From a virus, in IMG/VR virus record IMGVR_UViG_3300000956_000043, positions 1 to 23,883 of that record: DNA of 23,883 nt. One strand, written 5' to 3'. Positions 7,681-23,338 of the stretch are shown piece after piece. Each line of letters starts with the position of its first letter. Position 1 is the first letter of the stretch. The position numbers and the translations under genes were made by a program. The notes beneath the pieces are model-generated. The model ran no database searches. It was given only the letters and a program-made list of their open reading frames with translations, and was not told the origin of the DNA.

Positions 7681-9156
7681 ATGGACATCCCCGCCGCCGC
7701 ATGGGACAAGTTCCTCTCGTTCTACGAGCCGAAGGCCGACAAGTACGCCACGCCGGGTCAACTGGCGCAGGCCCTTGATCACCGGACCGTCCAGACCCCG
7801 GCGCTGGATCTTGTCGACCAGGCGTTGTGCAACCTCGCCGACGGGCTGACCAAGCGGCTGATCATCTCGATCGCCCCGCAGGAAGGCAAGTCGGAGAGGG
7901 TGTCGCGGCGGTTCCCGCTGTGGATGCTGCTCCGCAACCCCGACCTGCGGATCGCGATCGCGTCGTACGAGGCGACTAGGGCCAGACGGTGGGGGCGGGC
8001 GATCCGCAACGACATCAAGGCGCACCCCGAGCTGGGGCTTTCGGTGTCGTCGGACCGGGCGGCGGCGGCGGACTGGCAACTGGCGGCCTCCAACGGGTCG
8101 ATCTACTGCGTCGGTGTGGGCGGGGCCTTGACGGGTAGTCCGGTGGATCTCATGATCATCGACGACCCGCACAAGGGCCACAAGGAGGCCGACTCTCCCG
8201 TCCAGAGAGATGACGTGTGGGAGTGGTGGACCGGCACCGTCCGGACCCGGTTCGCGCCGGAGACGCCGATCGTGCTGATCATGACCCGCTGGCACGAGGA
8301 CGACCTCGCCGGACGGATGATCCGCGACGACGGGGCGTCGTGGACCGTGATCAACATCCCGGCGCAGGCCGACCACCGGCCGGACCACGGCGAGACCGAC
8401 CTACTTGGAAGGGAGCCGGGGCAGTTCCTGGTCTCCACCCGCGGCCGACATGAACTGCGGCCGAAGGGGACGTGCGCCAAGCACCCCGACCGGGAGTGCT
8501 GCGACTGGGAGGACATCAAGGCCGACGTCGGCTCCCGGACCTGGAGCGCGCTGTATCAGGGCAAGCCTTCACCGGGTGAGGGGCTGATCTTCCGCCGGGA
8601 GTGGTGGCAGTACTACCAGACTCCTCAGTGGCTGGTCGAAGACGACGGCACCCACCTGACGCTGACTTTCGACGAGGTCCTGACGTCCTGGGACTTTGCG
8701 TTCAAGGACACCGACTCGTCGGACTTCGTGGTCGGGCAGGTCTGGGGACGCAGGGGAGCGGACGCATACCTGCTGGACCAGGTGCGGGGACGTTGGTCGT
8801 TCGTCGAGACGTGCATGCAGTTCCGGTCCCTCGCCGCGAAGTGGCCTTCGGCCATCGCTCAACTGGTGGAGGACAAGGCCAACGGTCCTGCGGTCATCTC
8901 GTCTCTGCAGCGAGTGGTTCCCGGGATCATCCCGGTCCAGCCGGACGGGTCCAAGGTCGCGCGGGCGAGCGCGGTGAGTCCGTTCTGTGAGGCCGGCAAC
9001 GTGTATCTGCCGGAGTTCGCGCCGTGGGTCGGTGACCTGGTCGAGGAGTGCGCGTCGTTCCCGCTCTCGACCCACGACGACCAGGCCGACACGTTGTCCC
9101 AGGCGCTGACCCGACTGCTGCTGCACAACGTCCGACCCCGGGTGAGGTTCCTGTGA
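7681..9156 (+). CDS. Terminase large subunit
   Basis: This encodes 491 residues from the ATG at 7681, after GGGGGTGTC. It powers DNA packaging at the portal and cuts concatemers. The ATPase half has a Walker A-like loop APQEGKS at 65-71 (an atypical form), Walker B LMIIDDP at 157-163 and a coupling motif around TRWHEDDLAG at 202-211. The nuclease half shows the RNase H-like acidic residues in SWDFAFKD (Asp338), VEDKANG (Glu397/Asp398) and HDDQAD (466-470). A Cys-containing insert, CAKHPDRECCDW at 265-276, sits between the domains. Length is normal. The stop overlaps the next GTG (GTGA), so the following gene is co-translated. Confidence 0.95.
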   Translation: MDIPAAAWDKFLSFYEPKADKYATPGQLAQALDHRTVQTPALDLVDQALCNLADGLTKRLIISIAPQEGKSERVSRRFPLWMLLRNPDLRIAIASYEATRARRWGRAIRNDIKAHPELGLSVSSDRAAAADWQLAASNGSIYCVGVGGALTGSPVDLMIIDDPHKGHKEADSPVQRDDVWEWWTGTVRTRFAPETPIVLIMTRWHEDDLAGRMIRDDGASWTVINIPAQADHRPDHGETDLLGREPGQFLVSTRGRHELRPKGTCAKHPDRECCDWEDIKADVGSRTWSALYQGKPSPGEGLIFRREWWQYYQTPQWLVEDDGTHLTLTFDEVLTSWDFAFKDTDSSDFVVGQVWGRRGADAYLLDQVRGRWSFVETCMQFRSLAAKWPSAIAQLVEDKANGPAVISSLQRVVPGIIPVQPDGSKVARASAVSPFCEAGNVYLPEFAPWVGDLVEECASFPLSTHDDQADTLSQALTRLLLHNVRPRVRFL

Positions 9157-12500: not shown

Positions 12501-13387
12501 AGTCCTGGTACCGGATCGAGAACCGGGTGGGCGACCGCACCTCGGTCTACCTCTACGACGAGGTGGGCGGGTTCGGCGTCACCGCGGCCGACTTCGTCAA
12601 CGACCTGTCCGGCATCGACGGTGACTTCGACCTGCACATCAACTCGCCCGGCGGCGCGGTGTTCGACGGCATGGCGATCTACAACGCCATCCGCAACCAC
12701 CCCGGCAACGTCCGGGTCGTCATCGACGGCCTGGCCGCCAGTGCCGCGTCGTTCGTGGCGATGGCCGGCGACGAGGTTGTGGCTGAGCGCAACGCAACGC
12801 TGATGATCCACGACGGCATCGGGATCGCGGTCGGCAACGCCAAGGACATGCTGGAACTTGCCGGACTGCTGGACAAGTTCTCCGACAACATTGCGGCGAT
12901 CTACGCCGACCGTGCCGGAGGGACTCCGGAGGACTGGCGCAAGCTGATGCGGGCCGAGACCTGGTACTCCGCACAGGAGGCCAAGGACGCCGGCCTGGTC
13001 GACGAAGTGATCGGCGGCAAGTCCACCAAGAAAATGCCGACGAACACCTGGGACCTGTCGCTGTTCCAGCACGCGGGTCGACAGGACGCCGCGCTGTTCC
13101 CCGCGGCCAAGGCGCCCGACCCACCACCCGAACCAGCCACCCAGCCGGACCCGCCCGACGAGGCGGGTTTTTTGATGCCCGCCCTCGACCTCGGGGCGAT
13201 CCGGGACTCCATCGAGTCCCTCGACGACATCCCGCTGCAGCCCGACCTGATCAAGGCCGCGGTCTTCCTGGCCGCCACCGACGTGCCGGCACCCGATCCA
13301 GCACCAACCCCGACTCCGGACCCGGAGCCGGATCTGTCCATCAACCTGCCGGCCCTCCGGCGCCTTCTCAGAGAGGTCACGACGTGA
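12497..13387 (+). CDS. ClpP-type prohead protease with possible scaffold tail
   Basis: This encodes 296 residues from the ATG at 12497. Residues 1-175 are a ClpP-fold serine protease: HINSPGGAVFDGMAIYNAI at 47-65, nucleophile Ser82 in GLAASAASFVAMAG, and His105 in MIHDG, with the third residue probably in the helix region after 125. It should cleave capsid delta domains during maturation. A Pro-rich linker (206-220) leads to a helical tail, then a second Pro/Asp linker and a final helix. An intrinsic-terminator-like sequence lies under residues 218-226, and Met227 could be an internal start. The TGA overlaps the capsid GTG. Confidence 0.9.
   Translation: MKSWYRIENRVGDRTSVYLYDEVGGFGVTAADFVNDLSGIDGDFDLHINSPGGAVFDGMAIYNAIRNHPGNVRVVIDGLAASAASFVAMAGDEVVAERNATLMIHDGIGIAVGNAKDMLELAGLLDKFSDNIAAIYADRAGGTPEDWRKLMRAETWYSAQEAKDAGLVDEVIGGKSTKKMPTNTWDLSLFQHAGRQDAALFPAAKAPDPPPEPATQPDPPDEAGFLMPALDLGAIRDSIESLDDIPLQPDLIKAAVFLAATDVPAPDPAPTPTPDPEPDLSINLPALRRLLREVTT
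13150..13173 (+). terminator. Intrinsic terminator-like hairpin inside the protease gene
   Basis: CCCGCC at 13150-13155 and GGCGGG at 13162-13167 make a perfect 6-base stem with loop CGACGA, followed at once by TTTTTT at 13168-13173. This is the full form of a rho-independent terminator, and T6 runs are rare in DNA this GC-rich. It lies within the coding frame, about 210 bases before the major capsid start. Confidence 0.65.
13175..13387 (+). CDS. Possible nested scaffold-like product
   Basis: An ATG at 13175, in frame with the protease and directly after the T-run, would give a 70-residue protein made of the protease tail: helical MPALDLGAIRDSIESLDDI, a Pro/Asp-rich linker and a terminal basic helix LPALRRLLREV. 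GAGG about 11 bases upstream is a weak ribosome-binding site and would be occluded by the hairpin. In phage lambda, scaffold Nu3 is made from an internal in-frame start of protease gene C, so the arrangement has a precedent. Against it, the capsid protein here carries its own N-terminal delta-like region. Confidence 0.3.
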   Translation: MPALDLGAIRDSIESLDDIPLQPDLIKAAVFLAATDVPAPDPAPTPTPDPEPDLSINLPALRRLLREVTT

Positions 13388-14766
13388 CTGCTCCAACCAC
13401 GACGCTCCCGAGTGGGGAGCGGATCACTGTCCCGACCAACCAGCATGAACTCGAAGAACTGCTCGGCGACGCCAAGAAGATCACCGCGCTGGCCAAGCAG
13501 GGCGACCTCCCGGCCGCGATCGAGGCGTACGCGCGCTTCGTCGCGAAGTCCGACATGGACATCACCCGGCAGGTCCAGGAGCAGACCCAGCAGTTCCTCG
13601 CCCAGTGGGTCAAGGACAACGACGACGCCGGTGTCGGGCGGCCCGATCTGCGCACCCCGGCCCAGATGCCACCGGCGGGCAACGCCAACAACGTCATCCA
13701 CAACCCGCGGGCCATGGGCGCGCCACTGGACAAGGAGTTCCAGGGCCCGACCGCGGCGGCGGACTACTTCAACACAATCTGGCACAACGCCAACCGCAGT
13801 GCCGACGTCCAGGCGAAGCTGCACCGCATCCGCAACGCCTTCTCCTCGACGGTCCCCTCCGAGGGCGGCTACCTGATCCCCGAGGTACTGCGCTCGGAAC
13901 TGCTGCGGGTTTCGCTCGAGACCTCCATCGTGCGCCCGCGCGCGCGGGTGATCCCGATGGACTCGCTGCGGGTGCCGTTCCCGGCCATCGACTCGACGTC
14001 CAACGTCTCGTCGGTGTACGGCGGCGTGGTCGGCTACTGGACGCAGGAAGGCGCGGCGCTGACCGCGTCGCAGGCCTCGTTCGGCCGGATCGTGCTCGAC
14101 GCCAAGAAGCTGACCGCCTACACCGAGGTCCCCAACGAGCTCATCTCCGACTCGATCATCTCGTTCCAGGCCTTCCTGGACCAGATCTTCCCCGAGGCGC
14201 TGGGCTTCTACGAGGACGACGCCTTCATCAACGGCACCGGCGTCGGGGAGCCCCTGGGCTACCTCAACGGCTCGGCCGCCGTCTCGGTGTCCAAGGAGTC
14301 CGGCCAGCCCGCGGACACGATCGTCTGGCAGAACATCATCAAGATGTACGCCCGGATGCTGCCCGGCTCGCTGAGCCGCGCGGTGTGGGTCGTCCCGCCG
14401 GACGCCTTCCCGGAACTCGCCACCATGTCGCTGTCGGTCGGCACCGGTGGCTCGGCGATCTGGCTCAACAACGGCGTCTCCGGCCCGCCGGCCACGATCC
14501 TCGGCCGACCGGTCCTCATCTCGGAGAAGGTCCCGAAGCTCGGCGACGCCAAGGACGTGTCGTTCGTCGACTTCGGCTTCTACCTGCTGGGTGACCGCCA
14601 GGTCATGTCGGCCATGTCCAGCCCGCACTACAAGTTCGGCGAGGACGAGACCGCCTACCGCATCATCGAGCGCTGCGACGGCCGCCCGTGGCTGAACTCG
14701 GCCATCACGCCCAAGAACGGCGGCGCCACCCTGTCCCCGATCGTGACGCTCGCCGAGCGCGCGTAA
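13384..14766 (+). CDS. Major capsid protein, HK97 fold
   Basis: This encodes 460 residues from a GTG at 13384 behind AGAGAGG. Residues 1-130 are helical and charged (HELEELLGDAKKITALAKQG, RQVQEQTQQFLAQW), like the delta domain removed by the prohead protease. From about 150 the HK97 core follows: FSSTVPSEGGYLIPEVLRSE, RPRARVIPMDSLRVPFP, the WTQEGAALTASQASFGRI strand, KLTAYTEVPNELISDS, GFYEDDAFINGTGVGEPLGY, and the C-terminal domain ending in FVDFGFYLLGD and IERCDGRPWLNSA. The capsid lattice is built of hundreds of copies. The gene is followed by twin hairpins. Confidence 0.95.
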   Translation: MTAPTTTLPSGERITVPTNQHELEELLGDAKKITALAKQGDLPAAIEAYARFVAKSDMDITRQVQEQTQQFLAQWVKDNDDAGVGRPDLRTPAQMPPAGNANNVIHNPRAMGAPLDKEFQGPTAAADYFNTIWHNANRSADVQAKLHRIRNAFSSTVPSEGGYLIPEVLRSELLRVSLETSIVRPRARVIPMDSLRVPFPAIDSTSNVSSVYGGVVGYWTQEGAALTASQASFGRIVLDAKKLTAYTEVPNELISDSIISFQAFLDQIFPEALGFYEDDAFINGTGVGEPLGYLNGSAAVSVSKESGQPADTIVWQNIIKMYARMLPGSLSRAVWVVPPDAFPELATMSLSVGTGGSAIWLNNGVSGPPATILGRPVLISEKVPKLGDAKDVSFVDFGFYLLGDRQVMSAMSSPHYKFGEDETAYRIIERCDGRPWLNSAITPKNGGATLSPIVTLAERA

Positions 14767-14775
14767 CACCGCACA

Positions 14776-14807
14776 GCCCGGGGTGGCAATAAACCCCCAC
14801 CCCGGGC
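14776..14807 (+). repeat. Twin hairpin 1 after the capsid gene
   Basis: An 11-base perfect stem (GCCCGGGGTGG with CCACCCCGGGC) encloses the loop CAATAAACCC at 14787-14796. It begins 10 bases after the capsid stop. There is no T-run, so it is not a standard intrinsic terminator. The loop and closing pairs recur in hairpin 2. Confidence 0.8.
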
Positions 14808-14816
14808 CATTCACCG

Positions 14817-14838
14817 GCGCGGCAATAAACCCCCGCGC
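14817..14838 (+). repeat. Twin hairpin 2 before the next ribosome-binding site
   Basis: A 6-base stem (GCGCGG with CCGCGC) encloses the same loop CAATAAACCC at 14823-14832. The 14-base core GGCAATAAACCCCC is identical in both hairpins (14785-14798 and 14821-14834), while the stems differ but keep pairing. It ends two bases before AGAGG, the ribosome-binding site of the gene at 14853, so folding could affect its translation. Confidence 0.75.
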
Positions 14839-14852
14839 GGAGAGGCACGAAA

Positions 14853-15275
14853 ATGAATGCACTCGGAAGGCTGTTCGACATCGTCCCGGTCGCCCAGGAC
14901 GTGTTCTTCAGCGTGAAGGACTGCGAGAACGTCTGCTTCGTCGGCGTGCTCGCGGCCGGCGACACGTGGACCCTGTCGGAGGCCACCGCGGTCAGCGGCG
15001 GCACCGAGCAGGAACTGGCCGTCATCACCTACTCCTACGTCCAGACCACCGGCACCGGCGCCGACACGTGGACGAAGATCACCCAGTCGGCTGCGGCGGC
15101 CGAGGTCACCTCGTCCTCACAGGACGCGGTCGTCATCGAGGTGGACACCGACTCGCTGTCGGCCGGGTTCGACTACCTGAAGTTGGTCTCGACGTCGACC
15201 GGCACCGTGACCGCGATCCTGACCGACCTCAAGGTGCAGCGCAAGCCCGAGAACCTCCCGGCGCGGGGAGTCTGA
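14853..15275 (+). CDS. Capsid-associated structural protein (candidate)
   Basis: This encodes 140 residues from the ATG at 14853, with AGAGG 7 bases upstream. The N-terminus NALGRLFDIVPVAQDVFFSV, followed by strand-rich sequence (AVVIEVDTDSLSAGFDYLKL) and the end VQRKPENLPARG, matches a conserved actinophage protein encoded immediately after the capsid. It is Thr/Ser/Ala-rich and beta-rich, with no signal or membrane segment. A decoration or head-vertex role is a reasonable inference from position and composition. The exact function is not established as far as I know. Confidence 0.7.
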   Translation: MNALGRLFDIVPVAQDVFFSVKDCENVCFVGVLAAGDTWTLSEATAVSGGTEQELAVITYSYVQTTGTGADTWTKITQSAAAAEVTSSSQDAVVIEVDTDSLSAGFDYLKLVSTSTGTVTAILTDLKVQRKPENLPARGV

Positions 15276-15276
15276 C

Positions 15277-15735
15277 ATGGCCAACTTCCTTCAGGGCCAG
15301 GAGCTGCGCACGCTCCTGCTCGGCAACCGGGTCTCGAAGTCGACCGGCACCCTCGCGGCAACCACCATCTCGCTGTTCACGGTGGCCGGCGGTCAGTGTC
15401 TCGTCACGTCCATGTACGGGCTGGTGACCACGTCGATCACGGTGGCCAACTCATACAAGCTGATCATGAACCCGACCGACGGCGACACGCAGGACCTGTG
15501 CGCCGCCACGGACATCGGGACGACGGACACCCTGGCCGGCTCGATCCTGCAGTTCGGCCTGGCCACCACCACGGCACCGCCGAAGCTCATCTCGGTTGGG
15601 TACGGCACGTCGCGGCTGGATGTGACCGTTCCGATCGGCGACATCCAGCACACGTCGGCGGGTACGGACGGCGTCATCACCTGGTACCTGACGTACATCC
15701 CGATGTCCGACGGCGCGACCATCGTAGCCGCCTAG
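15277..15735 (+). CDS. Second capsid-associated structural protein (candidate)
   Basis: This encodes 152 residues from the ATG at 15277, one base after the previous stop. The start MANFLQGQELRTLLLGNRVS is followed by alternating strands rich in Thr, Ile, Val and Gly (TISLFTVAGGQCLVTSMYGL, ISVGYGTSRLDVTVPIGDIQ) and the end ITWYLTYIPMSDGATIVAA. This is a beta-sandwich-like protein of virion type, placed with the capsid genes. Decoration or trimeric head-surface protein is the likely role, inferred from location and composition only. Confidence 0.7.
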   Translation: MANFLQGQELRTLLLGNRVSKSTGTLAATTISLFTVAGGQCLVTSMYGLVTTSITVANSYKLIMNPTDGDTQDLCAATDIGTTDTLAGSILQFGLATTTAPPKLISVGYGTSRLDVTVPIGDIQHTSAGTDGVITWYLTYIPMSDGATIVAA

Positions 15736-15737
15736 CT

Positions 15738-16499
15738 ATGGCCGGCTACAACCGTGGAACCGAGGGTCGACTGAACGACATTCTGTCGACCCTCGGCACC
15801 ACCACGCCGTCACTGTGGCCGTTCTGGGAGGCGACGGGACTCACCGTCACCGGCATCGGCGTGGGCGACCTGACCCCGACCGAAACCGGCTCAACAGGCT
15901 TCGCCCCGCTGCAGCTTCCGTGCGGGCTGTACTCGTACCACTTCCACCCGACCGGCGACCACCACCTGGCCGGGATCGACCACGCCAACTACACCTTCGG
16001 CAACGGCACCGTCGACACCCCGTTCTCGGTGGGCGCGTGGATCCGGCCCAACGCCATCGCCTCCAACACGATCATGGCCAAGTACTCGGCCACCGTGCGG
16101 GAGTGGCGGTTCTGGATCGACGGCGACGGCAAGCTGGACCTGGAGCTGTACGACGAGTCGGCCGACACGACCGAGATCGCCGCCTCCACGTCCGCGCTGA
16201 CGCTGGGCCAGTGGCAGTTCGTCGTCGCCTCCTACGACGGAACGGAGTCCGCCCCTGTGGTGAACCTCTACGTCGACGGGACGCTGGCCAACGACGGCAC
16301 CACCGCCGAGACAGGCGCGTACGTGGCGATGGAGGACACCGCCACCCCGCTCACCGTCGCCTGCTCGGGCGTCACCGCGACGCCGGTCAACGAGTTCCAC
16401 GGCCGTATGGCGCTGCCGTTCATCACGGGCAAGGCGCTGTCCGCGGCCGAGGTGACCACCCTGTACACAACCATGGCGCCGATGGTGGGGGTCGCGTGA
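15738..16499 (+). CDS. LamG/concanavalin A-like lectin-fold head protein
   Basis: This encodes 253 residues from the ATG at 15738, two bases after the previous stop, without a good ribosome-binding site. Residues about 85-250 have the LamG/ConA-like jelly-roll pattern: PFSVGAWIRPNAIASNTIMA, REWRFWIDGDGKLDLELYD, LGQWQFVVASYDG, VNLYVDGTLANDG, and the closing FHGRMALPFITGKALSAAEV. Such domains bind carbohydrates. Sitting among capsid genes rather than tail fibre genes, it is probably displayed on the head. The N-terminal 80 residues may anchor it. The target glycan is unknown. Confidence 0.75.
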   Translation: MAGYNRGTEGRLNDILSTLGTTTPSLWPFWEATGLTVTGIGVGDLTPTETGSTGFAPLQLPCGLYSYHFHPTGDHHLAGIDHANYTFGNGTVDTPFSVGAWIRPNAIASNTIMAKYSATVREWRFWIDGDGKLDLELYDESADTTEIAASTSALTLGQWQFVVASYDGTESAPVVNLYVDGTLANDGTTAETGAYVAMEDTATPLTVACSGVTATPVNEFHGRMALPFITGKALSAAEVTTLYTTMAPMVGVA

Positions 16500-20190: not shown

Positions 20191-20619
20191 TTGGCAAAGC
20201 AGAATGGTCTCGGCTGGACGACGCTCCAGATCGACGACAGCGGCGGCACACTGCGGGACATCCGCAACGACGTGACCAACTTCTCGTTCGCCACGCCCCG
20301 CGGCGTGCAGGACGTGACGGGCCTCGACAAGTCGGCGATGGAGCGGCTGCTCCTGCTGGCCGACATGTCGATCAACCTCAACTTCGTCTTCAACGACGAC
20401 AACTCCAGCGCCGACGTCCACAACGTGTTCAAGACGGTGCCGTCCACGTCGGTGGCGCGGGAGTTCAACATCACCGTCTCGGGCCAGATCCTCGGCGTCA
20501 CCAACACCCCGACGCTGCTGTTCACCGACTACTCGCTCAACCGGGCGCAGGACGGGTCCCTGACCGGCACCGCACCCGGGGTGCTGGCCAACGGCGGCGT
20601 CCCGACCTGGTCCACCTGA
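20191..20619 (+). CDS. Second tail-tube-like protein
   Basis: This encodes 142 residues from a TTG at 20191 with AAGGAGGAGCC immediately upstream. The strong site decides the unusual start. The sequence AKQNGLGWTTLQIDDSGG, VQDVTGLDKSAMERLLLLAD, VFKTVPSTSVAREFNITVSG and AQDGSLTGTAPGVLANGG aligns with the tube domain of the protein at 18965 (shared AKQxGxG, VTGxxKSxxERL, DGSL). It lacks that protein's extra C-terminal domain. It could be the true tube subunit, a minor tube component, or part of a mixed tube. Confidence 0.8.
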   Translation: MAKQNGLGWTTLQIDDSGGTLRDIRNDVTNFSFATPRGVQDVTGLDKSAMERLLLLADMSINLNFVFNDDNSSADVHNVFKTVPSTSVAREFNITVSGQILGVTNTPTLLFTDYSLNRAQDGSLTGTAPGVLANGGVPTWST

Positions 20620-21023
20620 TGGGTTTCGTCCACCAGCGCAAGACGTACCGGCTGCTGTTCGAGGGCGACCTCGACGGCCTGGAGGTGGTGGCCAGGTCGG
20701 CGTCGGCGCGGATGTATACGCGCATCGCCGCCCTGGCCAACCGGGAGTGGTCCAACCCGCTCTCGGCCGAGGACCTGGCCGAGTTCGAGGCGCTGTGCCA
20801 GGCGTTCGCCAAGGTGCTGGAGTCCTGGAACCTCGAGGAAGAGGTTCAGGTCAAGGGCAAGCCCAGCCGCCGGGCTGTACCCGCCACCCTGGACGGGCTG
20901 CTCGACCAGGACCTCGAACTGGTCACGGCCATCGTGCTCGCCTGGATGGACGCTGTCGCCGGCCCCGCGGCCGTGAGCGGGCCGTTCTCGGAAGAGTCGC
21001 TGCCGATGGAGGCACTGCCGTAG
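20619..21023 (+). CDS. Tail assembly chaperone
   Basis: This encodes 134 residues from the ATG at 20619 (TGATG overlap). The sequence has TYRLLFEGDLDGLEVVARSA, a helical middle (EDLAEFEALCQAFAKVLESW), then the WNLEEEV ... RAVPATLDGLLDQDLELVTA pattern and IVLAWMDAVAG. This layout, between the tail tube and tape measure genes, is that of actinophage tail assembly chaperones, which keep the tape measure protein unfolded during assembly. The usual programmed frameshift to a longer form is not evident: the -1 frame closes at 21037, and no strong slippery heptamer was seen. Confidence 0.85.
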   Translation: MGFVHQRKTYRLLFEGDLDGLEVVARSASARMYTRIAALANREWSNPLSAEDLAEFEALCQAFAKVLESWNLEEEVQVKGKPSRRAVPATLDGLLDQDLELVTAIVLAWMDAVAGPAAVSGPFSEESLPMEALP

Positions 21024-21037
21024 GACTGGAGGCGTAG

Positions 21038-23338
21038 GTGACCAGTCCCGGAGGCAATCTGGTTGAGATCCGTGTCGTCGCCGTGGATCAGACCGGTCCC
21101 GGCTTCGACTCGGCCACCAAGAAGGCCAAGGGTCTGGCCCAGGCGGTCGCCGGTGGGCCGGGCTCGGCCGCGGGGGCGTTGAAGGAAGCCGAGAAGCAGG
21201 CCAGCGGCCTGGGCTCGACGCTGCGCCGGGTCGGCGAGGTGGCCGGCGGTGTGCTGGTCGCCGACGCCGTGCAGGCGATGGCCCAGCGCGCCGTGGCGCT
21301 GGTGAAGTCCACCGCGAAGGCCGCCTCCGACCTCGGCGAGTCTGTGAACGCCGTCAACAAGACCTTCGAGGCGTCCTCACAGCAGGTTGTCCAGTGGGGC
21401 GAGGACAACGCCAACGCCTTCGGCCTGTCGCAGCGGGCGTTCAACCAGATGGCCGTGCCCCTGGGTGCGATGCTGAAGAACCAGGGGTTGCAGCTCGACG
21501 AGGTCACCGACCACACCCTGAAGCTGACCCAGCGGGCCGCCGACATGGCCTCGGTGTTCAACACCGACGTCACCGACGCCCTGATGGCGATCCAGGCTGG
21601 CCTGCGCGGCGAGATCGACCCGCTGGAGCGCTACGGCGTATCCCTGTCCGCCGCCGCGGTCGAGGCAAGGGCGCTGGCCGACTCCGGCAAGGAGAGCGCC
21701 AAGGAGCTCACCGCCCAGGAGAAGGCCCTCGCCCGGCTGAACATCCTGTACGAGCAGACCGCCGACACGGCGGGTGACTTCGCCGACACCTCCGACGGGC
21801 TGGCCAACTCGCAGCGGATCATGCGAGCCCAGATCGAGGACGCCCAGGCGACTATCGGCACCTCGTTCATGCCGGTACTCGCCAAGGCGGCGCAGTTCGC
21901 CGGCAACCTGGCCGAGTCGTTCGCGGGGATGCCGGCGCCACTGCAGATCGCCTCCGCCGCCGTAGTTGGGTTGGCCGGGGCGATTGGGCTCTTGGCCCCC
22001 AAGGCGCTGGCGGCCAAGGCGGCACTGGACGAGATGGCGGTGTCAGACTCCCGCCTCCAGCGCGGCATGGCTAAGACGACGGTCGCCGTCGGGAAGGCCG
22101 GCGCGGCGTTCGCGGCCCTCGGCCTGGCGGTCGCCGGGCTCTCGGCCGTCTTCGGCGATGACCTCAATCCTCAGGTCGAGGCCGCCGCCAAGGGGCTGAC
22201 CGAGTGGAACAAGCGGGCGAAGCTCTCCGGTGAGGCGGCCCGGCTGTTCGGCGAGGACACCAAAGTCCTCGAGATGTCGATGCAGCAACTGGCGCAGGGC
22301 GGCCTGTACAAGGCCGGCGACCAGGTTGGGCAGTTCCTGTCCAGCCTCGTCGGCGCTCCCGGGCCGCTGGGTCGCGCCAAGGAGCACGTCGACGCCTTCG
22401 ACTCCGCCCTGGTCCAGATGGTCCAGGGCGGTCACGCCGACGAGGCCGCCGAGGCGGTTGCGCGTCTGGCCGAGCTCACCGGCATCTCCATCGAAGACGC
22501 GCTGAAGCTCCTGCCCCAGTACTCAGGCGCCGTGGAGGTCGGCGCACGGAAGACTTCCGAACTCGGACGGGCAGCCGAAGAGACCGCCCTCGGCATCGAC
22601 GAGTTGCGCAAGTCGACCAAGGAGTACCTCGACGAGGCGTTCTCCCTGGAAGAGGCACAGGACCAGGTTGCCGAGTCGACACAGCGGCTGATCGAGCAAC
22701 TGAAGAAGCAGCACGAAGAGGAGGTCGCGGGTGCCGGTGCACTGACCGGCAACACCGAGGCCGCCCTCGCCAACCGGGAGATGGTCCGGACGCTCACCGA
22801 GGACTACTCGCGGATGATCCTGGAGACAGCCGAGGCCGGTCGTTCCACCGACGACCTGCGTGGCGAACTCCAGACGCTGCTGGTGAACCTGGGCTTCGGC
22901 GCGGCCGAGGCCGAGCGGTACACGCGGGAACTCGCCGGCCTCGAACAGCAGCTCGCCCAGATCAAGTCCAAAGAGGTCAAGATCCGGGTCAAGGTCGAGC
23001 AGGGCCAGATCTTCGGCGGCGGTGCCACGGAGTTCGCCCACGGCGGCATCACCGGCGCGGCCTCCGGTGGAGTCCGGAGCGGGCTGCAGGTGGTCAACGA
23101 GCAGGGACCCGAACTGGCCCGCATCCCCACCGGGGACATCGTGTCGCTCCCCACCGGCTCCACGGTGATCCCGCACGGCCAGTCCATGGCGATGCTCGCC
23201 AACGGCGGCGGAGGGCAGATCGCCTGGGCGGCCCCGGTGGTGTTCAACCCGCCGTGGGACACGTTCTTCGCCGGCTTCCGCGATGAGATCCAGGCCCGCG
23301 GCGGCACCCTGGCGGTCATCGGAATCCGGAACGGCTGA
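21038..23338 (+). CDS. Tail tape measure protein
   Basis: This encodes 766 residues from a GTG at 21038 after GGAGGCGTAG. It sets tail length; at the usual 1.5 angstrom per residue this predicts a tail of about 115 nm. Residues 1-120 are Ala/Lys/Gly-rich and helical. Hydrophobic segments lie at about 298-325 (PLQIASAAVVGLAGAIGLLA) and 350-375 (AAFAALGLAVAGLSAVFG). The region 480-650 is coiled coil. The C-terminus has the common tape-measure end: EFAHGGITGAASGGVRSGLQ, VVNEQGPELARIPTGDIV, GSTVIPHGQ. No peptidase or lysozyme domain is visible. Confidence 0.93.
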   Translation: MTSPGGNLVEIRVVAVDQTGPGFDSATKKAKGLAQAVAGGPGSAAGALKEAEKQASGLGSTLRRVGEVAGGVLVADAVQAMAQRAVALVKSTAKAASDLGESVNAVNKTFEASSQQVVQWGEDNANAFGLSQRAFNQMAVPLGAMLKNQGLQLDEVTDHTLKLTQRAADMASVFNTDVTDALMAIQAGLRGEIDPLERYGVSLSAAAVEARALADSGKESAKELTAQEKALARLNILYEQTADTAGDFADTSDGLANSQRIMRAQIEDAQATIGTSFMPVLAKAAQFAGNLAESFAGMPAPLQIASAAVVGLAGAIGLLAPKALAAKAALDEMAVSDSRLQRGMAKTTVAVGKAGAAFAALGLAVAGLSAVFGDDLNPQVEAAAKGLTEWNKRAKLSGEAARLFGEDTKVLEMSMQQLAQGGLYKAGDQVGQFLSSLVGAPGPLGRAKEHVDAFDSALVQMVQGGHADEAAEAVARLAELTGISIEDALKLLPQYSGAVEVGARKTSELGRAAEETALGIDELRKSTKEYLDEAFSLEEAQDQVAESTQRLIEQLKKQHEEEVAGAGALTGNTEAALANREMVRTLTEDYSRMILETAEAGRSTDDLRGELQTLLVNLGFGAAEAERYTRELAGLEQQLAQIKSKEVKIRVKVEQGQIFGGGATEFAHGGITGAASGGVRSGLQVVNEQGPELARIPTGDIVSLPTGSTVIPHGQSMAMLANGGGGQIAWAAPVVFNPPWDTFFAGFRDEIQARGGTLAVIGIRNG

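Follow-up and report, generated by a model that had tools for sequence, protein, structure and literature searches.

We found that the mRNA interval between the major capsid protein gene (MCP) and the gene that follows it (D1) in a tailed phage carries a pair of hairpins, HP1 and HP2, with one shared loop and different stems, and that this arrangement of a conserved loop on covarying stems recurs in more than 100 related phages, which bears out the preliminary description of this DNA in calling it a selected RNA structure. That a conserved RNA element exists here is, on sequence comparison, practically beyond doubt. It is best explained as a cis-acting RNA carried on the late-operon mRNA and shared by a large group of tailed phages, and as the upstream part of the ribosome-binding region of D1. 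Our proposal for its function, namely that the twin hairpins are a cis-acting operator of D1 translation, is tentative, and no activity, binding or RNA data support it at present.

The window, meaning the whole stretch of DNA analysed, is the 23,883-base IMG/VR record IMGVR_UViG_3300000956_000043. HP1 (14776-14807) folds with 11 perfect pairs (-25.1 kcal/mol, z -4.8, equalled by 0 of 200 shuffles), while HP2 (14817-14838) forms 6 pairs and is unremarkable when folded alone (z -1.2). The stems start 41 nt apart, and the loops lie within identical 14-base cores, GGCAATAAACCCCC, at 14785-14798 and 14821-14834 (offset 36 nt); an exact search found exactly two copies of this core in the entire window. 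Sequence and fold thus confirm the twin hairpins first described, with a shared loop and differing stems that pair over 11 and 6 bases, and the gene coordinates place them between the capsid gene and its neighbour, with the second hairpin directly against a ribosome-binding site (Table 1). On the other hand, the preliminary description had gone too far in taking loop identity and stem covariation within one sequence as strong evidence. A loop shared by two hairpins of a single sequence is only suggestive, and it is the comparison across phages that excludes chance.

Table 1. Positions of the hairpins and of the adjacent genes in the window.
Feature	Position	Strand	Evidence or remark
Major capsid protein gene (MCP)	13384..14766	+	Pfam Phage_capsid PF05065, E 4e-51; PHROG major head protein, E 2e-51
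HP1 5' arm, GCCCGGGGTGG	14776..14786	+	Sequence, fold, covariation in 48 phages
HP1 loop, CAATAAACCC	14787..14796	+	Consensus CANUNRNNYC inside a G-C closing pair
HP1 3' arm, CCACCCCGGGC	14797..14807	+	Sequence, fold, covariation
Linker HP1-HP2	14808..14816	+	Linker plus HP2 5' arm near-constant, giving loops 33-36 nt apart
HP2 5' arm, GCGCGG	14817..14822	+	Sequence, fold, HP2 covariation
HP2 loop, CAATAAACCC	14823..14832	+	Sequence, loop alignment
HP2 3' arm, CCGCGC	14833..14838	+	Sequence, fold, HP2 covariation
D1 Shine-Dalgarno (SD), GGAGAGG	14839..14845	+	Immediately 3' of the HP2 stem; equally adjacent in most relatives
D1, 140 aa, predicted beta-sandwich	14853..15275	+	97-member family, AlphaFold2, structure comparison

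The search for the loop flanked by complementary arms, proposed earlier as a check, was carried out as three scans of IMG/VR, each using a single 14-mer DNA pattern and no protein information. Together they returned 140 hairpins with stems of at least 6 bp, 137 of which adjoin, on the same strand, a homologue of the window MCP and/or D1. The 14-mer of the window, GGCAATAAACCCCC, occurred in 119 viral stretches and had flanking stems of at least 6 bp at 44 sites, all but one of them (43/44) near MCP and/or D1 homologues. With the same stem threshold, 66 hairpins were found for GGCAGTAACGCCCC and 30 for GGCATTGAAACCCC, two variants of the loop; an MCP homologue precedes them on the same strand in 64/66 and 30/30 cases, respectively. 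In prokaryote genomes, GGCAATAAACCCCC was present in 118 stretches and had such stems in only two, in line with the 3% expected from generic GG-N10-CC sites. Since the prokaryote copies form stems only at the chance rate, we reject the hypothesis of a host-genome feature.

The reverse test gave a consistent picture. Among 67 distinct loci picked solely by MCP similarity, the motif lies downstream of MCP in 60, although one of these (L312) resembles a chance match within a later gene; two of the other seven (L308 and L276) have variants of the element. Absence of the loop and pairing from phages that share the capsid gene and its downstream neighbour had been named in advance as the refuting outcome, and the opposite was found. 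Furthermore, the motif is concentrated in the gap, with 97 matches in 58 kb of gap versus 9 in 1.14 Mb elsewhere, and taking the strongest stem of each gap without any loop condition led back to this loop in the majority of loci. Of 13 whole records (up to 122 kb), nine were matched by a covariance model built on the hairpin, each at one place. We therefore reject a multi-copy, genome-wide operator, as in each record the model matches the MCP-D1 place only.

The loop consensus over the 14-base core is RGCANUNRNNYCCY. The pattern used to collect the hairpins already fixed several of these positions, and the clearest evidence for the consensus is the unselected listing of gaps. Analysis of covariation in related phages, likewise suggested at the outset, showed frequent double changes. 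In the HP1 stem, 9 of 10 pairs have two-sided changes (154 double-change cells in 48 phages) and 99.4% of the cells are paired, versus 41-62% after sliding the alignment; in the HP2 stem these values are 6 of 7 pairs, 95 cells and 91.5%, versus 33-53%. The sequence sets behind the pair counts, A2 and A3, were preselected for stems and loop pattern. The unselected tests are instead the 14-mer scans with their neighbours, the prokaryote control, the loop-free best stem, the MCP-selected loci and the gap density. Chance pairing is rejected by the stem counts, the prokaryote control, the slid-alignment control and the density in the gap versus elsewhere.

Stem pairs rank at the top in mutual information, along with a contact within the loop, N5-N10 (columns 13-18). 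These two positions, at 14789 and 14794 of the window, covary as U-A, A-C, G-G, C-C or C-A. In the aligned loops this covariation is non-Watson-Crick and encloses a U-N-R-N turn, from which we infer a non-canonical N5-N10 pair closing a U-turn tetraloop. Kissing between the HP1 and HP2 loops was also considered and rejected, as the window loops are identical and the N5/N5 table reveals no pairing rule.

The geometry is constrained as well. HP1 stems are mostly 11-12 bp. The HP2 stem (4-10) and the spacer (3-17) compensate each other across phages, so that 44 of 49 pairs keep their loops 33-36 nt apart; in 40 of 59 loci, 0-5 nt separate the HP2 stem from the start of the SD. Strong, GC-rich hairpins between two cistrons might suggest an intrinsic terminator or an attenuator at the MCP-D1 junction, a reading to which we give almost no credit. 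The remark in the preliminary description that no T-run follows the hairpins holds for both stems on the + strand of the window and extends to the relatives, where TTTT follows the stems in 0 of 60 loci. Moreover, a terminator does not require a fixed loop, and stopping after HP2 would sever the D1 message. As a U-run after the stems is absent from the window and from all 60 relatives, the intrinsic terminator is rejected.

HP2 is the core of the element, whereas the hairpin in the upstream position, slot 1, can be exchanged. An alternative hairpin, HP1b, stands in for HP1 in 14 of the 59 loci that have one canonical hairpin and could be scored, versus 0 of 74 twin loci. In 13 of these 14 cases it is rooted 10-12 nt away from the HP2 loop; among random control stretches, HP1b turned up in 3 of 3000. 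Its internal loop is GA/GGUA in L089:13298-13335 and in L012, L050, L110, L242, L285, L292 and L500, and GUA/AGUA in L029, L274, L275 and L459. By our own reading, this internal loop is similar to a bulged-G or loop-E motif. Further non-canonical hairpins fill slot 1 in other loci. As a separate observation, L011 and L250 carry in slot 1 an HP1 whose loop is expanded to GGCAGGAGAUNACAUCAAGCCCC; the two versions are almost the same, although these phages differ in G+C content.

This exchangeability bears on the possibility that the element is an anti-pausing or antitermination RNA that binds RNA polymerase. The put RNA of phage HK022 is about 70 nt long, consists of two tandem stem-loops and acts in cis on the elongation complex (PMC9378689). 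The element, about 65 nt in total and conserved in sequence among its relatives, resembles putL/putR in the tandem stem-loops, the length and the presumed cis-acting character of a phage RNA, a likeness of layout for which the sequences were not compared. However, put lies downstream of early promoters and has RNA polymerase as its target, whereas our element sits deep in a late operon, where a scan restricted to the sigma-70 consensus found no promoter-like site in 13000-16000, and it abuts an SD. An unrelated hairpin can, in addition, take the place of slot 1. We consider a put-like function very improbable.

Several loci reveal to which gene the element is attached. In Streptomyces phage Dagobah, an additional ORF lies between MCP and the hairpins, which are still directly 5' of D1. 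Elsewhere the intervening genes are an Endonuclease_7 gene, a transglycosylase-like gene, unassigned ORFs or a tRNA, and the hairpins again stay before D1. Examples of tRNA, Endonuclease_7 and transglycosylase-like genes in the MCP-to-hairpin interval are at L273:3275-3361, L285:5515-5598, L370:1365-1949 and L263:5353-5697, as though genes inserted preferentially here. Because the hairpins remain before D1 when genes insert after MCP, we conclude, judging by gene order, that the element belongs to D1 rather than to MCP.

The loci that lack the element are also informative; D1 usually begins there no more than about 50 nt past the MCP stop. In five of them (L309, L254, L257, L312 and L303), D1 starts 4-33 nt past the MCP stop, a distance as for coupled translation, which we can only presume from the spacing. 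In L276, with its variant hairpin, D1 lies 48 nt past the MCP stop, and in L294 the motif is absent, a longer gap is kept and another hairpin is present. On the MCP tree the losses are scattered, with 6 changes for the 6 rows scored as lacking the element (one of which, L308, is a variant). Since it is lost sporadically, the element is not essential.

We also weighed a role in mRNA processing or stability, in which the hairpins would separate the MCP and D1 messages and shield the 3' end of the former and/or the 5' end of the latter, possibly with a cut by a loop-specific nuclease. The site is intercistronic, between the genes of two virion proteins that are probably very abundant, and an HP1 stem of 11-12 bp is very stable. 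However, plain protection needs only a stem and not a conserved loop, a set loop distance or adjacency to an SD, and the element keeps with D1, not with MCP. This explanation is in our opinion unlikely, though it deserves to be kept in mind.

The gene upstream of the element encodes an HK97-type major capsid protein, as judged from its match to the Phage_capsid profile (Table 1). The product of D1 belongs to a family, aligned here with 97 members, that is marked by the motifs ALGRLF (N-terminal) and QR.P.NL (C-terminal). Its sequence gave no useful match in PDB, Pfam or PHROGs. The AlphaFold2 model has a pLDDT of 94.9; a Foldseek search with this fold found nothing below 1e-3 in PDB, and the matches in BFVD were mostly to uncharacterised or unnamed viral proteins. 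The best solved structures by VIA were YomS (Z 9.2) and XepA (Z 9.0), followed at Z 8.2 by 9hz8_0 and 8fwg_l1, particle chains of Agrobacterium phage 7-7-1 and Milano, and such Z values are borderline relative to those that common folds produce. Based on the predicted structure, D1 is likely a decoration or auxiliary capsid protein, which is not proven. D1 is followed by D2 (window 15277-15735), a small predicted protein also found near D1 in many relatives and without a match in Pfam or PHROG.

As far as sequences alone can establish it, the comparison has shown a loop carried on a freely varying stem, HP2 set against the SD of D1, and a near-fixed distance between the two loops. Since the loop is conserved and the stem is not, and since the loop spacing is fixed despite a variable HP2 stem and spacer, the element has the character of a protein site. 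Likewise, a single matching place per record, in records of up to 122 kb, argues for local action. The preliminary description had left its list of possible functions open; the evidence now favours an action on the ribosome-binding region of the downstream gene. The conserved loop belongs to a hairpin that adjoins the ribosome-binding site, as would be expected of an autogenous phage translational operator of the gp43 or coat-protein type, and we read the element as a protein-bound operator because of the conservation of loop rather than stem, the fixed geometry, the adjacency to the SD and the loss in loci with short gaps.

We infer that a protein, whose identity is unknown and for which there are no binding data, would recognise the loops. 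The binder would probably be a dimer or a multi-site complex touching slot 1 and HP2 at the same time, and it may in this way set the frequency of ribosome starts on D1, the sign of the effect being unknown. The simplest form would be feedback repression by a phage virion protein, either D1 or MCP, which could match the amount of D1, the probable decoration protein, to that of the capsid protein. Against such an operator, the predicted fold of D1 contains no known RNA-binding domain, HP1 lies well away from the start codon without obstructing the ribosome itself, and an enhancer or a processing site would yield much the same sequence pattern.

In the T7 gene 10 leader, as in other SD-proximal stem-loops, a hairpin stands directly before the SD of a capsid gene, and in the element HP2 likewise abuts an SD in the capsid operon. 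A translation enhancer of D1, or a ribosome standby element, could be laid out in the same way and act without any protein, as HP2 lies immediately against the SD and both neighbours are probably high-abundance virion genes. Such a function would leave unexplained a conserved loop and a two-loop spacing in the presence of free stem sequence, and we know of no conserved loop pair at fixed spacing, across a phage group, in the T7 gene 10 leader. We hold this possibility to be rather improbable.

Returning to the protein-bound operator, the nearest precedent by mode of action is, by analogy, the gene 43 operator of T4. There, synthesis of gp43 is repressed at the level of translation by gp43 itself, acting on a hairpin 5' of the start whose loop carries a conserved -UAAC- (PMC3014915). 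The operator of T4 and RB69 resembles the element in being a hairpin 5' of the start with a conserved apical sequence and an overlap with the ribosome-binding site (PMC3014915), and UAAC also occupies the UNRN positions in many loops of the element (GGCAGUAACGCCCC). It differs in being a single hairpin, in a replication gene and with a known protein ligand, whereas the element has two loops at fixed spacing, other flanking loop bases, a place before a capsid-operon gene and an unknown ligand. In the RNA phages MS2, PP7 and Qbeta, a hairpin recognised by loop and stem at a start site regulates the virion-protein operon. These coat operators resemble the mechanism we propose; they are, however, single operators at the replicase start of RNA genomes, while the element consists of twin hairpins in dsDNA tailed phages with an HK97-type capsid protein.

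A more speculative idea, which we regard as having only a slight chance of being correct, is that the twin-hairpin RNA takes part in capsid assembly itself: capsid or decoration proteins would bind the MCP-D1 segment of the mRNA, which would nucleate the shell or pace its assembly where these proteins are synthesised, with slot 1 taken by either of two RNA modules presenting equivalent surfaces. If true, one step by which dsDNA tailed phages assemble would be directed by RNA.

No match to Rfam 15 reached the gathering threshold in the window or in ten related loci. Sub-threshold matches at the element scored 12.5-20.8 bits against gathering scores of 38-114, and a known Rfam family is rejected, as all matches fall below these scores. 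We found no paper describing the element in the open-licence literature, searched in part by literal text match to part of the loop. Cis-regulatory hairpins of phages are known; what appears to be new is this particular hairpin family, along with the geometry of its two loops and its location within a tailed-phage capsid operon. Control of capsid-gene expression through RNA is well established for RNA phages and, to our knowledge, little documented in tailed DNA phages. The element is apparently a structured RNA not described before. It is a marker of a large phage group with almost no cultured members, and its fixed loop, two-loop spacing and interchangeable first module make clear predictions for identifying the binding protein.

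At least 586 MCP relatives are present in IMG/VR, and the phages that carry the element are almost entirely uncultured. MCP matches were found in 2 of 396 Actinomycetota genomes and in 1 of 251 genomes of the Chloroflexi phylum; none of these three has a readable element nearby, and the best, L324, stops at a contig end. In a Streptomyces order, 7 of 392 genomes gave MCP matches, and 5 of the 7 are prophages with the element; of the remaining two, one is without it, D1 following MCP at a short distance, and the other is ambiguous. Among the matches listed, the only cultured close relative is Dagobah, a phage of S. coelicolor, which renders the predictions testable. Its hairpins lie at 7820-7849 and 7854-7883 of the record, in an unannotated stretch, and the word "hairpin" is absent from the Dagobah paper. 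The same genome (L564) also has an annotated SsgA-family sporulation regulator at 20593-21057 and a Pup-like protein at 22613-22849.
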